Source: an uncultured Alphaproteobacteria bacterium | Lineage (GTDB): Bacteria; Pseudomonadota; Alphaproteobacteria; Caulobacterales; Hyphomonadaceae | NCBI GenBank assembly: GCA_903831255.1 | Contig: CAIKWZ010000045.1 | Span: forward strand, 1-64,000 | Reading direction: 5' to 3' | DNA length: 64,000 nt | Shown: in pieces, positions 57,911 through 64,000 of the stretch | How the letters are laid out: each line of letters opens with the position of its first letter | Numbering within the stretch: position 1 is the stretch's first letter | Notes under the pieces: generated by a model | What the model was told of the DNA's origin: nothing | Seen by the model: only the letters and a program-made list of their open reading frames with translations | Database searches by the model: none | Translations under genes and position numbers: made by a program

Positions 57911-59284
57911 TCAGAAATCAAATGTCGCGGCGGAATATCCATAGACGACGTTTCCAGAGGTATCCGCATTCGGCGCGTTTCTGAGAAACGAACCCTTTGT
58001 TAGATGAGCGGCCCCAAGCTCAAGGCGCGGTCCGGACGAGGCAGGTCGCCACCGCAGTCGACCTTCCAGCTGAACCCCAACCTCCTTGCCTGAAGCGCCG
58101 GCCCGATCCCGCAGCCCGGATAGAGAGAACCCATCCCGGCTCTCGGCCAGATCGATCTGACGGAGCGACACATACGCTTCCGAAGACCCTGTGGGTCGCC
58201 AGTCGAGCCGCAGGCCCGATGATTTCAGGTTTGAGCGTGCAATAACGCCCCACAGGCTCGTTGGCCCAAATTCGAAGCTCCTGTCGCCAAAAAGCGGATC
58301 AAATCTTTCATGGAGGTCGTCTCCAGGGTCCCTGTCGCCGGATGCGAAATCATAGTGAAGGGACACTCTGGGCGAGGTCGGGATCGCGAAGGTGAGGCCT
58401 ATCTCCGCGTGACTCATCGCTGCGTTTGTCGCCAGATCTGACGTGTCCGCAGGCGACGTGGTCGCCCTGGAACGGCCTGACTGATGAGCCCACTCCAGGT
58501 CGAAATCGACCTGCTTTGTTTCCGGCGCCTTGTACAGGCGCAGCCCATATGTCGTCAGCCGACGGTCACGTGAGGGAAAATCGGAAGCGTCCCGCTCATC
58601 GATTCTGAATACGTAGCCTTCGCCACTCACGCCATCCGTCAATACGCGCCGGAGGTGAGCACCCGAGAACACGCTGGCCTCGTGCGACTGATTGAGCTTC
58701 GGTTTGTTGGAGGCGGCGGCGGATGTCTCAAATGGCTGCCGGATAACCGGCGACACTCTAAAGGCGATGACTTCCCCTAACTCTCCCGACCTCCAGAGAA
58801 GTCTGAGGCCGTCGAATGATGTCTTCTGATTTTTAAAATGAGAGCGAGCGGTCAGTCTTCTCGACCCTACATCCATCGTAAACCGCCCCAGCTCAAGACC
58901 GAGCGAATCTCCTGCTTGCTCCGGGTCTGACAGAGCCCAGGACACGTAGGCCTGGATGGGTTCAAGCGTGTCCACTTCATTGGGGGCGGCGCCCGTTAAG
59001 GGACCCGATAGGCGCCGGGAATCCTGGATCTCACCCACCAGCGACATGCCGCCGAAATCTGCTTCGGCTTTCAGAAGAGTGAGAAGGCTCAGGAAGTGAT
59101 CGCTCGCGGGCGCCTCACCCGACATGCGTCCCGAGAGTGTCTCCACACGGGACCGAACGGAACCTGAGACAGACACCTGAACGGGCTCCCCGGAAGCGGG
59201 CTGTTGCGCATGGGCGACCGGCGAGCCGGCGAGGAGCGTCGTCAGACAGGCGATCCAAGGTGTGGTTACGCGCACTTTTTTCAT
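57911..59284 (-). CDS. Outer-membrane beta-barrel (alginate-export-like porin)
   Basis: 457 residues. Signal peptide 'WIACLTTLLAGSPVAHAQ'. The mature chain has many alternating strands with short turns and the late signature 'FDPLFGDRSFEFGPTSLWGVIARSNLKSSGLRLDWRPTGSSEAYVSLRQIDLAESRDGF' of the alginate-export barrel family; it ends in aromatic Phe after 'YGYSAATFDF', as outer-membrane proteins do. Likely a substrate-selective channel. ATG 59284; an ATG at 59356 would add 24 residues before the signal. Divergent from the Rrf2 gene; a putative operator lies in the shared 158-bp region. Confidence 0.8.
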   Translation of the reverse strand: MKKVRVTTPWIACLTTLLAGSPVAHAQQPASGEPVQVSVSGSVRSRVETLSGRMSGEAPASDHFLSLLTLLKAEADFGGMSLVGEIQDSRRLSGPLTGAAPNEVDTLEPIQAYVSWALSDPEQAGDSLGLELGRFTMDVGSRRLTARSHFKNQKTSFDGLRLLWRSGELGEVIAFRVSPVIRQPFETSAAASNKPKLNQSHEASVFSGAHLRRVLTDGVSGEGYVFRIDERDASDFPSRDRRLTTYGLRLYKAPETKQVDFDLEWAHQSGRSRATTSPADTSDLATNAAMSHAEIGLTFAIPTSPRVSLHYDFASGDRDPGDDLHERFDPLFGDRSFEFGPTSLWGVIARSNLKSSGLRLDWRPTGSSEAYVSLRQIDLAESRDGFSLSGLRDRAGASGKEVGVQLEGRLRWRPASSGPRLELGAAHLTKGSFLRNAPNADTSGNVVYGYSAATFDF

Positions 59285-59355: not shown

Positions 59356-59383
59356 TTTACTTACTCTATATGGTGAGTATAGA
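59356..59383 (+). promoter_or_regulatory. Promoter of the Rrf2 gene with overlapping dyad
   Basis: -35 TTTACT (59356-59361) and -10 TATAGA (59378-59383) with a 16-base spacer. Between and overlapping them is the dyad TACTC-TATATGGT-GAGTA (59362-59379). Read on the minus strand the dyad contains TACTCAC, a 7-mer also found in the dyad before the sulfate-binding protein gene. A protein bound here would block the promoter. Confidence 0.65.
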
Positions 59384-59442
59384 TTTAATGGCTGTCAGGG
59401 TTTGGCTACAGTTATCGCGTCTGAAAAAGCGGAGGTTCAAGC

Positions 59443-59862
59443 GTGATTTCCCAGAAGGCTAAGTATGCATTGCGCGCGCTTCTGGCGTTAGCCCGAGCTC
59501 CGTACGGCTCGTCCGTTTCGATCGGGCAGATTGCAGATGAGCAGTCGATACCGAAAAAGTTTCTCGAGCAGATACTTCTCGAGCTCAAAATGCACGGTCT
59601 GGTCGAGAGTCGTCGCGGAAAGGCCGGTGGTTATTCACTTTTTCGACCCTCTGACATGATTTCGTTCGGCGATGTGCTGCGGATTGTCGATGGTCCGATA
59701 GCGCCTTTGCCCTGCCTCTCCCGGATGGCTTATCGACGCTGCGCTGACTGTGGGGACGAGACGTCGTGCGAAGTCCGACGCGTTTTCTCCCGGGTTGCGG
59801 AGGAAACCCGCGACGTCCTTGATCGGACAAGCATTGCTTCTGCTCTGGGGCGCTCGCTCTGA
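59443..59862 (+). CDS. Rrf2-family transcriptional regulator with four cysteines
   Basis: 139 residues. Winged-helix Rrf2 pattern: 'ISQKAKYALRALLALARAPYGSSVSIGQIADEQSIPKKFLEQILLELKMHGLVESRRGKAGGYSLFRPSDMISFGDVLRIVDGP'. Cys91, Cys100, Cys103 and Cys109 could hold an Fe-S cluster or sense thiols; IscR and NsrR use three cysteines, so the spacing here differs. Position in front of the sulfate importer suggests a sulfur-status regulator like CymR (inference). GTG 59443 after GCGGAGG. Confidence 0.88.
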   Translation: MISQKAKYALRALLALARAPYGSSVSIGQIADEQSIPKKFLEQILLELKMHGLVESRRGKAGGYSLFRPSDMISFGDVLRIVDGPIAPLPCLSRMAYRRCADCGDETSCEVRRVFSRVAEETRDVLDRTSIASALGRSL

Positions 59863-59897
59863 AATCTTTCGCTGGGTCGTCCCGGCTCTCCAACGCG

Positions 59898-59925
59898 TTG
59901 ACAATCACTACTCACTTTGTAGTGT
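59898..59925 (+). promoter_or_regulatory. Promoter of the sulfate importer operon with overlapping dyad
   Basis: Perfect -35 TTGACA (59898-59903) and a -10-like TAGTGT (59920-59925), spacer 16. Inside is CACTAC-TCACTTT-GTAGTG (59906-59924), a perfect 6-bp dyad containing TACTCAC, shared with the site before the Rrf2 gene. It sits 23 bases before the ATG of the binding protein gene. Likely Rrf2 repressor site. Confidence 0.7.
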
Positions 59926-59947
59926 TTTCGTCTCAAGGAGGGCGGCG

Positions 59948-60961
59948 ATGCGAATTCTCGTATGGGTGCTGGCGGCGGCGACAGGTCTTGCGGCGGCCTG
60001 TTCTCCTCAACCCTCGGGCCGTTCTATTCTCAATGTTTCATATGACGCGACCCGCGAGTACTTCGAGGTCTTTAACCGCGAGTTCGAGGATGCATGGTTT
60101 CGGGAGACCGGTGAGCGGATTGTTGTGAACATGTCTCACGGCGGCTCAGGGAAGCAGGCCAGGGCGGTGCGCGACGGGCTTGAGGCGGATGTGATCACCC
60201 TGGCGCTGGGCGCCGATCTGGACCTGGTCGCGCGAGACGCCGGGGCTCTTTCAGAGGCTTGGAGGGAAGAGCTTCCCGCCGGGGGCGCTCCTTTTTTTTC
60301 GACGATTGTCTTCGTTGTGCGCGAGGGCAACCCAGATAGCGTTCGGGACTGGGGCGATCTGACCCGACCTGGCGTTCAGGTTGTCACTTCGAACCCGAAG
60401 ACCTCTGGCGGCGCGCGATGGGCCTATCTCGCTGCGTGGGCGTGGGCTGACGCCCACAGCGGTGGGAGAGAGGCGGAGACGATAGCGCGGCTTTCGGCTC
60501 TTTTCCGAAACGTTCCTGTCCTCGATACGGGCGCGCGAGGGGCTGTGACCACATTCGCCCAAAGAGCGCTTGGCGATGCTCTGGTGACCTGGGAGAGTGA
60601 GGCTTTGCTGATCCGGGAGGAGTTCGGAGAGCAGAAGTTTGAGATTGTTTACCCCGCCGTAACCATCCGAGCCGAGCCTGTCGCTGCTGTGGCTCGGGGT
60701 CATGCGGAGCGCCATGGCGTCGCGGATATCGCTGAGGCCTACGCCGGGGCCCTGTTTTCAGAGACTGGCCAGCGTCTCGCTGGGAGGTTCGGCTTTCGTC
60801 CCTCCTTTCCCGAACTCGTCGCTGTGAACGAACGTCAGTATTTTCCTCCCGTGGAGATGGTGTCTGTTGATGATCCTGTTTTTGGAGGGTGGGGCGAAGC
60901 GCAGCGGCGCCATTTCGCTGAAGGAGGATCATTCGATCGTGTCATCGGCGATCAGAGGTGA
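59948..60961 (+). CDS. Sulfate/thiosulfate-binding protein of the CysPTWA importer
   Basis: 337 residues. Matches Sbp/CysP: 'ILNVSYDATREYFEVFNREFEDAWFRETGERIVVNMSHGGSGKQARAVRDGLEADVITLALGADLDLVA', 'TRPGVQVVTSNPKTSGGARWAYLAAWAWA' and 'ALVTWESEAL'. The signal peptide ends in LAAAC (Cys18), so the protein seems to be lipid-anchored, whereas E. coli Sbp and CysP are free in the periplasm. Delivers sulfate to the CysTW permease. ATG 59948 with AGGAGG just upstream; cysT starts 3 bp after the stop. Confidence 0.93.
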   Translation: MRILVWVLAAATGLAAACSPQPSGRSILNVSYDATREYFEVFNREFEDAWFRETGERIVVNMSHGGSGKQARAVRDGLEADVITLALGADLDLVARDAGALSEAWREELPAGGAPFFSTIVFVVREGNPDSVRDWGDLTRPGVQVVTSNPKTSGGARWAYLAAWAWADAHSGGREAETIARLSALFRNVPVLDTGARGAVTTFAQRALGDALVTWESEALLIREEFGEQKFEIVYPAVTIRAEPVAAVARGHAERHGVADIAEAYAGALFSETGQRLAGRFGFRPSFPELVAVNERQYFPPVEMVSVDDPVFGGWGEAQRRHFAEGGSFDRVIGDQR

Positions 60962-60964
60962 TCC

Positions 60965-61828
60965 ATGTCGGTTCATGCGATCATGCCTCCATTGCCGGCT
61001 CGCAGGCCCCGTCGACCGATCCCGGGGTTTGGTCTCAGTCTGGGGTATTCGATTGTCTATCTCAGCTTCGTGGTTCTTCTGCCGCTGATCGCTCTGGCGA
61101 TGTCCGCCGCTCGCCTTGATTTCGACGGCTGGATGAGGGTTTTAACGGACGACCGGGTGATAGCCGCTCTGAGGCTGAGCTTCGGGTCCGCTCTCGCCGC
61201 CGCCATTGTCAACTCTGTCTTCGGTCCGATCTGCGCCTACGCTCTTGTTCGTTTCCGCTTTCCGGGACGCAGGATGCTCGACGCTCTGGTGGATGTGCCT
61301 TTCGCCCTGCCGACGGCTGTCGCCGGCATCGCCCTCGCCAGCTTGTACGCCCCATCTGGTCCCATGGGAAAAGCGATCCTCGAGGTCTTTGGCGTTCAGG
61401 TCGGATACACCTCTCTTGGCGTTACGCTCGCCCTGATTTTTGTCGGTCTTCCGTTCACAGTCCGCACACTGCAGCCCGTTCTCAGAGACCTGGAAGGAGA
61501 TATGGAACAGGCAGCCGCCCTGTTGGGAGCGGATCGTTCTCGTGTCTGGAGACGCGTGATTGTCCCATCGGTCGCGCCCGCGCTGGTGACAGCTTTCACT
61601 TTGAGCTTTGCTCGGGGGGCGGGCGAATATGGATCTGTCATCTTCATCGCCGGAAATTTCCCACGCCTGTCAGAAATCGCGCCGCTACTGATCATCATCC
61701 GGCTCGAGGAGAGCAATTATGCCGGAGCATCGGCCATCGCCATGGTGATGCTCCTGGTTTCCCTCTGCTCTCTGGTCGTGATCAACCTCTTTCAGGCCTT
61801 GATGAGAGAGCGATTGGGTCATGAGTGA
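60965..61828 (+). CDS. cysT: Sulfate ABC permease CysT
   Basis: 287 residues, about six membrane helices. 'IPGFGLSLGYSIVYLSFVVLLPLIALAMSAA' is the CysT opening, 'DVPFALPTAVAGIALASLYAP' and the ATPase-contact loop 'DLEGDMEQAAALLGADRSRVWRRVIVPSVAPALVTAFTLSFARGAGEYGSVIFIAGN' (EAA motif) are canonical. Forms the pore with CysW. Overlaps cysW by 8 bp. Confidence 0.95.
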   Translation: MSVHAIMPPLPARRPRRPIPGFGLSLGYSIVYLSFVVLLPLIALAMSAARLDFDGWMRVLTDDRVIAALRLSFGSALAAAIVNSVFGPICAYALVRFRFPGRRMLDALVDVPFALPTAVAGIALASLYAPSGPMGKAILEVFGVQVGYTSLGVTLALIFVGLPFTVRTLQPVLRDLEGDMEQAAALLGADRSRVWRRVIVPSVAPALVTAFTLSFARGAGEYGSVIFIAGNFPRLSEIAPLLIIIRLEESNYAGASAIAMVMLLVSLCSLVVINLFQALMRERLGHE

Positions 61829-62711
61829 GGATCGGCCATCTTCCGCATGCCTCCAGGCGCATGCGAGGCGGTACGCCGGGGCAGGCGATGGGCCTGTGCT
61901 TCGGCTTCTTCTCATCCTGATCACCTGGCTCTTTTTGTCGATTGCGGTCCTGCTTCCCCTCTGCGTTGTGTTCGTGGAGGCCTTTGCTCGCGGATCGGAT
62001 GTCTTCCTGTCGGCTCTTGTCTCCCGCGAGACGCTTCAGGCTCTCAGCCTGACCCTGACGGTGACTGCCCTTGTTGTCCCTGCAAACATGATTTTCGGTT
62101 TGTCGGCCGCCTGGGCGCTGACGAAGTTCGAGTTTCCGGGAAAGCCCGTTCTCCTCTCGCTGATCGATCTGCCGTTCGCTGTGTCTCCAGTGATCGCCGG
62201 CTACGTCCTTGTCCTCGTTTTTGGTTCTTCCGGATGGTTGGGTCCTGTTCTTTCAGAACTCGGTGTGAAGGTTCTTTTCTCCACCCCGGGAATTGTGCTG
62301 GCGACCATCTTCGTGACCTTTCCGATGGTCGCGCGACCCCTCATCGCCCTCATGGAGGATCAAGGTCGTGAGGAGGAGGAGACGGCACTGTCTCTGGGAG
62401 CCGGCGGATTAAGGACATTCCTGACCGTAACGCTGCCTAATGTGCGATGGGCGCTCTTCTACGGGGGGCTGCTTTGCGCTGCGCGATCATTCGGGGAGTT
62501 CGGGGCGGTATCGGTCGTGTCGGGGCATATTCGAGGCCTCACAAACACCATGCCGCTTCATGTGGAGGCGCTTTACAATGACAATCGGGTTGCTGCGGCC
62601 TTTGCTGTGGCCTCCCTTCTCGCCTCGTTCTCTTTGTTCACTTTGATACTCAAGTTCGTTCTTGAGCGAAAACTACCAGACGACGTTCGGGAAGCCGAAC
62701 GGGTTCGCTGA
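61821..62711 (+). CDS. cysW: Sulfate ABC permease CysW
   Basis: 296 residues, about six membrane helices. 'FLSIAVLLPLCVVFVEAFARGSDVFLSAL', 'FPGKPVLLSLIDLPFAVSPVIAGYVLVLVFG', 'GIVLATIFVTFPMVARPLIALMEDQGREEEETALSLGAGGLRTFLTVTLPNVRWALFYGGLLCAARSFGEFGAVSVVSGHIRG' are the CysW signature. The first ~25 residues are a polar extension. ATG 61821 overlaps the cysT end; cysA starts 15 bp after the stop. Confidence 0.95.
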   Translation: MSEDRPSSACLQAHARRYAGAGDGPVLRLLLILITWLFLSIAVLLPLCVVFVEAFARGSDVFLSALVSRETLQALSLTLTVTALVVPANMIFGLSAAWALTKFEFPGKPVLLSLIDLPFAVSPVIAGYVLVLVFGSSGWLGPVLSELGVKVLFSTPGIVLATIFVTFPMVARPLIALMEDQGREEEETALSLGAGGLRTFLTVTLPNVRWALFYGGLLCAARSFGEFGAVSVVSGHIRGLTNTMPLHVEALYNDNRVAAAFAVASLLASFSLFTLILKFVLERKLPDDVREAERVR

Positions 62712-62726: not shown

Positions 62727-63782
62727 GTGAAACTTGAGCTGGAGAATGTCACCCGGCGTTTTGGTCCCAGGTCGGTCGTTGATCACGTATCGCTCGAGAT
62801 CGCGTCGGGCCAGCTCGTCGGCATCCTGGGGCCTTCCGGATCGGGAAAGACAACCCTGCTCCGGCTGATTGCGGGTCTCGAGTCAGCCTATGAGGGACGG
62901 GTTCTCTTCGATGGCCTCGATGTCTCGGAGCTGCCTCTTCGGTCGAGGGGGGTCGGTCTTGTTTTCCAGCAGTATGCTCTGTTTCGACATATGCGGGTGT
63001 TTGAAAATATAGCTTTTGGTCTGCGGGCGCGGTCGGGGAAAGAACGTCTCTCCGGCATCGAGATTCGGCGCCGGGTCAGTGAGTTGATCCATCTGGTGCA
63101 GTTAGAAGGTCTGGAGGACCGCTTTCCGAGGCAGTTGTCCGGCGGACAAAAGCAGAGAGTGGCTCTCGCCCGCGCCTTGGCGGTCGAGCCCCGATTGTTA
63201 CTCCTTGATGAACCTTTTGGCGCTCTCGACGCAATGGTTAGACGAGACCTAAGACGTTGGCTCCGAAGTCTTCACGAGCGGACCGGACGGACCACCATCT
63301 TCGTCACCCATGACCAGGAAGAGGCCCTCGAACTCGCCGATCGAGTTATCGTCATGAACGCGGGGCGCGTGGAGCAGGATGCGGATCCGGATCGCATCTA
63401 TGACGATCCGGCGTCGTCTTTCGTCTTCGAATTCATAGGTGAGGCCAGCCGCCTTCCAGTTCAGATCCGGGACGGGTTGGTCTGGTTTCGGGACAGATTA
63501 TTGACATCCCCTCGCGTTGAGGCGCCTGACGGTCCTGCCGTTCTGCATCTTCGGCCAGAGCATGTGCGCTGGACTGAAGGGGAGGGGTCAATCGATGTTT
63601 CGGTGATTGCCGGACGGAGGATTGGTCCCCATCGCCGTCTCGGTCTTGAGATTCCAGGCGGATGGGGAAGGCTTGAAATGGATACGGACGCAGCTACCCC
63701 GATGCGGATAGGTGATCAGTTTCGGGTAGAGATCACCGGGGGACGAGTGTATGCGCCTTCTAAATCCAGGCCGCTTCAGTAG
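62727..63782 (+). CDS. cysA: Sulfate ABC transporter ATPase CysA
   Basis: 351 residues. Walker A GPSGSGKT at 35-42, Q-loop '[25 protein letters not shown]', signature '[19 protein letters not shown]', Walker B '[12 protein letters not shown]' and '[18 protein letters not shown]'. '[16 protein letters not shown]' and the C-terminal regulatory TOBE-like part are typical of CysA. Energises sulfate uptake. Last gene of the operon; its stop lies next to that of the opposite LysR gene. Confidence 0.96.
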
Positions 63783-63784
63783 GC

Positions 63785-64000
63785 TCAGACCCCGCTGACC
63801 TCTCCAGATCTGGCTTCCGCTTTCAGCCATGCGATAAACGCCCGCGCGAGCTTTGAGGGCGTTCTCCATTTGGGCCAGACGATCCAATAGGCGAAATCAA
63901 TATCGGCCGATCCATCTGCGAACGGAGCAACCAGTCGTCCTCTGTCGAGGTCCCCAGCAGCGATCGCCTTTTTGGCGAGGGCCACGCCTTTGCCGGCCGC
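63785..64000 (-). CDS. LysR-family regulator, C-terminal part only
   Basis: The frame is open to the window end, so only the last ~71 residues are seen. 'AGKGVALAKKAIAAGDLDRGRLVAPFADGSADIDFAYWIVWPKWRTPSKLARAFIAWLKAEA' is the end of a LysR substrate-binding domain of the GcvA-like type ('GRLV.PF', 'Y..V.P'). The DNA-binding part lies outside. Convergent with cysA; whether it regulates the cys genes cannot be told. Confidence 0.85.
   Translation of the reverse strand, partial: AAGKGVALAKKAIAAGDLDRGRLVAPFADGSADIDFAYWIVWPKWRTPSKLARAFIAWLKAEARSGEVSGV

Follow-up and report, generated by a model that had tools for sequence, protein, structure and literature searches.

Does an Rrf2-family regulator encoded directly before a sulfate importer operon control that importer along with its own gene, and what might it sense? 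The question is raised by a sulfate-assimilation locus at the end of the window, by which we mean the whole 64-kb stretch of DNA analysed here, in a genome of Hyphomonadaceae type. A preliminary description, made from the sequence of the window, had read two related dyads in the promoters of this locus as the binding sites of a repressor that governs both its own gene and sulfate uptake. That regulatory reading finds support in synteny, in a shared operator and in the co-occurrence of genes and regulator, and several of the details on which it was built need revision.

Gene content of the locus

The locus has the gene order Rrf2-sbp-cysT-cysW-cysA and is made up of the following genes:

57911..59284, minus strand: porin-like outer-membrane gene of the alginate-export family, divergent from the Rrf2 gene (PF13372, 147.8 bits; start codon chosen by us)
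59443..59862, plus strand: Rrf2-family regulator gene, 139 aa, GTG start (PF02082, 127.8 bits, cut-off 30; TIGR00738, 115.1 bits, cut-off 73.3)
59948..60961, plus strand: sbp, sulfate ABC transporter substrate-binding protein (TIGR00971, 341.2 bits, cut-off 155.5)
60965..61828, plus strand: cysT permease (TIGR02139, 340.9 bits, cut-off 246.1)
61821..62711, plus strand: cysW permease (TIGR02140, 347 bits, cut-off 329.1)
62727..63782, plus strand: cysA ATPase (TIGR00968, 343.5 bits, cut-off 342.75)
63785..64000, continuing in L132: LysR-type regulator gene, divergent from cysG-cysI-DUF934-cysH

To the right of cysA, mostly outside the window, the LysR gene is accompanied by genes for a tetrapyrrole methylase, a NIR_SIR sulfite/nitrite reductase, a DUF934 protein and a PAPS-reductase-domain protein, and we read these four as cysG-cysI-DUF934-cysH. 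On the other side, the porin-like gene adjoins the Rrf2 gene in 13 of 14 genus loci, and its promoter may share the operator centred at 59373, making it a possible extra target.

A predicted operator shared by two promoters

The promoter elements discussed below are as follows:

59356..59361, plus strand: -35-like hexamer TTTACT of the Rrf2 promoter (TTTACT in 13 of 14 genus promoters)
59362..59384, unstranded: predicted 23-bp operator of the Rrf2 gene, centre 59373, overlapping the promoter (second-ranked place in the window with the Rhizobiales-only matrix)
59378..59383, plus strand: -10-like hexamer TATAGA of the Rrf2 promoter, within the operator
59898..59903, plus strand: -35 hexamer TTGACA of the importer promoter
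59904..59926, unstranded: predicted 23-bp operator of the sulfate importer operon, centre 59915 (top-ranked place in the window; motif from 48 promoters)
59920..59925, plus strand: -10-like hexamer TAGTGT of the importer promoter, within the operator

Both dyads are present as first described, TACTC-N8-GAGTA before the Rrf2 gene at 59362-59379 and CACTAC-N7-GTAGTG before sbp at 59906-59924. They had been placed between -35 and -10 hexamers with 16-base spacers, and both hexamer pairs do have that spacing (59356-59383 and 59898-59925), but the right arms of the dyads overlap the -10 hexamers. Likewise, the TACTCAC said to be common to both sites is shared on opposite strands only, in keeping with the two 23-bp sites as a whole, which agree at 16 of 23 positions on opposite strands versus 10 of 23 in the same orientation. 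A dyad taken alone says little here because such dyads are common, with 101 perfect 5+N8+5 and 31 perfect 6+N7+6 instances in the window (raw counts, with no shuffled baseline).

An unsupervised, de novo search of 48 Rrf2-to-sbp intergenic regions, those of 47 relatives plus the window's own, returned a single strong motif, aACaCgACcaa.ccg.TAGaGTta, at 622 nats compared to 76-85 in three shuffled sets. The conserved operator takes the form of a 23-bp inverted repeat with an 8+7+8 layout and the ideal sequence aACTCTAC-N7-GTAGAGTt; its symmetry centre is odd, at position 12 of the 24-mer (correlation 0.85, next-best centre 0.45), and complementary arm pairs number seven of eight at the sbp operator and four of eight at the Rrf2 operator. 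We then scored the window with a matrix built from 28 sbp-promoter sites of genomes assigned to the order Rhizobiales, none from the window's family. The two window sites rank first with this matrix (20.2 and 15.6 bits), the next place scoring 8.8; in 100 simulated windows the best score averages 10.5 (sd 2.8), with one up to 20.9. Because an independent matrix ranks both sites first, it is the comparative signal, not the dyads, that exceeds chance, and on this comparative ground we take the two promoter sites to be real and to represent one predicted operator.

The two dyads relate differently to this operator. The centre of CACTAC-N7-GTAGTG agrees with the conserved symmetry. We rejected TACTC-N8-GAGTA as the operator of the Rrf2 gene: it is centred at 9.5 of the 24-mer, which is not the conserved centre, and 11 of 14 genus Rrf2 promoters keep ACTCTAC but have ATATAG instead of GAGTA. 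The N8 dyad is kept in the window's own Rrf2 promoter and in that of genome G014, G008 having another variant, and it is probably an off-centre, incidental feature of these promoters.

Conservation of the operator and co-occurrence with the regulator

The order Rrf2-sbp-cysTW recurs in Hyphomonadaceae and Rhizobiales. Among 80 relatives, and within the DNA fetched for each, 47 have sbp downstream of Rrf2 and in the same orientation, seven Phyllobacterium loci carry an sbp homologue on the other side of Rrf2 and divergent from it, and the remaining 26 have neither arrangement. A motif search before the cys genes of relatives, as the preliminary description had suggested, finds the operator recurring at sbp promoters. 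Fourteen of the 15 genus genomes have the locus, and with the Rhizobiales-only matrix the Rrf2 promoter reaches at least 14.4 bits in all 14 and the sbp promoter at least 12.1 bits in 13, the exception being G008 at 6.1; in the fifteenth, G006 (73% complete), neither the regulator nor the sbp gene was found. In a set of 61 relatives, these 14 genus genomes have both regulator and sbp; outside the genus, sbp is found in three same-order genomes (G042, G045, G053), and a regulator match in four, G021 at 71% identity and G049, G053 and G037 at 40-50%.

Across 241 genomes of the class, with presence set at E 1e-25 or less for the regulator and 1e-50 or less for sbp, 25 have both genes, four the regulator only and 16 sbp only (Fisher p 2.9e-19, species relatedness ignored). 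Sites follow the same pattern. We scored 48 of the 49 class sbp matches (G292 left out), using about 370 bp for 30 of them and up to 470 bp for the other 18, and the operator reaches at least 12 bits at 15 of 32 sbp genes in genomes with the regulator, a count that includes the window's own sbp from the matrix training set, versus none of 16 in genomes without it (p 6.7e-4, relatedness again ignored). As a baseline, 12 bits is reached by 6.5% of 370-bp stretches drawn at random from these loci with their true sites left in. The other 17 of the 32 promoters score below 12 bits, and at these the operator appears to have diverged or been lost.

Control of sulfate uptake by the Rrf2 protein is further supported where regulator and importer are unlinked. 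Three genomes (G115, G304 and G224) have the scored sbp on another contig than the regulator, and the operator is found at both promoters, the regulator of G115 adjoining cysT-cysW-cysA; weaker sites precede unlinked sbp genes in Devosia submarina (L184, model E 0.96) and Ciceribacter (L180, 0.32). The family member G021 has the regulator, with the operator at its Rrf2 gene, and is without an sbp match in the search of the 61 relatives. Two more operator sites of this genome lie at L035:3513 and L274:398; they precede a DUF2292 gene with a TonB-dependent receptor gene next in line and an anion-symporter gene, the latter site scoring 27.0 bits, and suggest that the regulator outlived replacement of the importer. 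The symporter matches CitMHS best among Pfam families and also Na_sulph_symp, scores 136.3 bits on TIGR00785 (DASS), below the cut-off of 198.6, and may carry something other than sulfate. Another TonB-dependent receptor gene, present in 8 of 15 genus genomes (L282-L289) and without a match in the window's own genome, has a site about 80 bp upstream that scores above 20 bits in seven cases and 8.0 in the other, none of these sites having been used to build the matrix. Operators before TonB-dependent receptor genes suggest sulfur-source uptake at the outer membrane.

Genome-wide searches with a second model, R1, mostly return to the same loci. In the 15 genus genomes an E limit of 2 gave 20 matches, of which 17 are at the Rrf2/sbp locus, two precede a TonB receptor gene and one (L159) is without a clear target. 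In the 26 Rhizobiales genomes an E limit of 1 gave 23: 14 at the Rrf2/sbp locus (with both strands of one place among them), one adjoining an Rrf2 gene (L188), three at two places before unlinked sbp/cysT plus one both-strand match (L180/L186, L184, L174), and four elsewhere (L171, L181, L182, L189). The L159 match looks like chance, as does L189, where an FtsZ-type gene ends about 590 bp away. The R1 search is insensitive, scoring at most 150 candidates per genome: in G000 it recovered the sbp site only (E 1.06), and in the 61 family genomes, under stricter filters, it found five and missed the strong G021 sites. The matrix scan of the window's own genome covered the window plus some 31 kb (L132, L133, L002), and further sites are possible elsewhere in it. 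As a separate observation, L171:1501-1523 of Phyllobacterium trifolii is a strong operator-like site (18.4 bits, model) before an AhpC/TSA-family gene, a possible thiol-stress target.

The regulator and its probable signal

The protein belongs to the Rrf2 superfamily by the scores given above, and none of the NCBIfam equivalogs fits it. The reported cysteine pattern, C-x8-C-x2-C-x5-C, is confirmed as C91, C100, C103 and C109; none of the four varies among 60 aligned sequences, the window's being one of them, and they are kept in 83, 83, 82 and 83, respectively, of a second set of 83 distinct sequences. C91, C103 and C109 align with residues 92/98/104 of E. coli IscR and 91/96/102 of NsrR, which are the cluster ligands of those proteins, and C100 falls in an insertion relative to both. 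The preliminary description held that the pattern is not that of IscR or NsrR and that the signal may be new. The spacing does differ, but because three of the four cysteines align with cluster ligands, we rate a sensor of Fe-S type that has one additional cysteine and an entirely new signal as equally likely.

Comparison with characterized family members leaves the regulator distinct from each. It scores 73.1 bits on the IscR model TIGR02010 (cut-off 207.55), and its spacing contrasts with the C-x5-C-x5-C of the IscR ligands; on the NsrR model NF008240 it reaches 49 bits against a cut-off of 182. The extra invariant C100 and the longer spacing set it apart from both, as do its predicted targets, sulfate uptake rather than Fe-S assembly or nitric oxide. 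RirA of Rhizobiales is likewise an Rrf2 regulator of nutrient uptake in Alphaproteobacteria, and its [4Fe-4S] form represses iron uptake (PMC10510648); the window protein differs in its predicted targets, sulfate rather than iron uptake genes, and scores 50.2 bits on NF008886 (cut-off 193).

An AlphaFold2 model of the protein (pLDDT 93.8) has a winged-helix fold with a long C-terminal helix at 110-128, and Foldseek places CymR of Bacillus and Staphylococcus nearest (TM-score 0.77-0.81 for the three top 2y75 chains), then RsrR, IscR and NsrR. CymR, the nearest solved fold, carries no cluster and senses with CysK, according to PMC9338935. Sulfur-metabolism targets, predicted ones for the window protein, and the proposed repressor logic are common to both, but the window protein scores 73.4 bits on NF047409, where the cut-off is 195.

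This likeness gives weight to the strongest alternative view of the signal, a serious contender to which we would give somewhat under even odds: the regulator would sense cysteine or O-acetylserine via CysK, as CymR does, or reactive sulfur, and its cysteines would form a zinc site or redox thiols without a cluster. CymR is the nearest fold, it scores as well as IscR among the NCBIfam models, and the targets are sulfur genes; nevertheless, CymR is without the cysteine loop, as an HMMER alignment to 2y75 indicates, and the alignment of three cysteines with known cluster ligands points back to a cluster. Loss of an Fe-S cluster is, by analogy with RirA and iron, the signal we consider likeliest.

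The genome encodes a second Rrf2 protein above the Pfam cut-off (L002:1501-1875), which has a loop without cysteines and adjoins a class-V aminotransferase gene; because of these two features the IscR seat probably belongs to this protein. It recalls the IscR of Rhodobacteraceae described in PMC4618611, which lacks the usual cluster cysteines.

Mode of action

The reading we favour, with a probability of roughly 0.8, is that of an autoregulated, dimeric Rrf2 repressor of sulfate uptake that binds the putative operator and perhaps responds to an Fe-S signal. An autoregulated repressor fits because the 23-bp operator covers the spacer and -10 hexamer of both the regulator's own promoter and that of sbp-cysTWA. 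A winged-helix Rrf2 dimer would bind the inverted repeat, with its 8-bp arms and 7-bp centre, at these two promoters; when sulfur is sufficient it would shut sulfate uptake and limit its own synthesis, and when sulfur is short it would release the operator, most likely on losing a cluster held by C91, C103, C109 and possibly C100 as cysteine sulfur becomes scarce. We infer repression from the position of the operator only, and direct binding, the dimer and the signal likewise stand as predictions. The LysR gene at the operon end could act on the importer too.

Were the Rrf2 protein instead an activator, it would bind between -35 and -10 and remodel a poor promoter in sulfur shortage. Some promoters would suit this: in 40 of 43 the -10 hexamer matches TATAAT at three or four of six positions, of the 43 sites only 26 have a hexamer beginning TTG at the fixed offset, and some of the Rhizobiales have a weak -35, so that activation keeps some standing. 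Of 43 sbp promoters, 24 have a hexamer agreeing with TTGACA at five or six positions that begins six bases upstream of the motif. In the window and genus a good -35 at sbp and an operator over the -10, the usual place of a repressor, oppose activation, as does the operator at the regulator's own gene, and we consider an activator improbable.

That a different regulator binds the operator, for instance the neighbouring LysR protein, with the Rrf2 gene merely another target, is more doubtful still. The LysR gene does lie at the window end and adjoins cysG-cysI-DUF934-cysH, but the 16 kb with LysR and the sulfate-reduction genes contain no site as high as 7 bits, and site presence tracks Rrf2 presence across the class sample (a comparison of sites, sbp and Rrf2). 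The 8+7+8 layout is also that of an Rrf2 site: the ScNsrR site, the only Rrf2 operator compared, spans 23 bp with a 7-bp central region (PMC9338935). More broadly, in the window's own genome and six relatives we scanned 14 stretches of 10.9-16.2 kb surrounding two PAPS-reductase-domain genes, taken as cysH and cysD, and 13 have no site of at least 11 bits, the exception being one 11.5-bit site in L142; the best scores at the genome's own reduction-gene loci are 6.7 bits (L132) and 8.7 bits (L133). Because these scans found no operator at the reduction genes, which lie beside the LysR gene, uptake and reduction may be controlled separately.

Finally, that the conserved sequence is a plain strong promoter of -35, spacer and -10 has very little probability, for although the -10 hexamer falls on the right arm, conservation extends to a left arm that mirrors the right one, and the sequence is missing from every sbp promoter scored in genomes without the regulator.

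Significance

The shared promoter signal is thus probably the landing site of the neighbouring four-cysteine regulator, by which sulfate import appears to be shut down in many Alphaproteobacteria. A sulfur regulator of the Rrf2 family is a kind already known through CymR. Our literature search found no published description of this regulator lineage, its operator or its cysteine set, an earlier in-silico prediction in regulon databases being possible. To our knowledge, and from the same search, little has been described of how sulfate uptake is controlled outside the CysB and CymR models. The present analysis predicts, over many genomes, a regulator jointly with its operator and several of its targets. 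We offer more tentatively, and at distinctly lower confidence, the wider idea that across a large part of Alphaproteobacteria a four-cysteine Fe-S Rrf2 repressor reads sulfur as cluster occupancy and shuts the whole uptake route, including TonB-dependent receptors and importers of both ABC and symporter type. A cluster-based reading of sulfur supply thereby becomes a concrete question and, if true, the regulator would be the sulfur counterpart of RirA.
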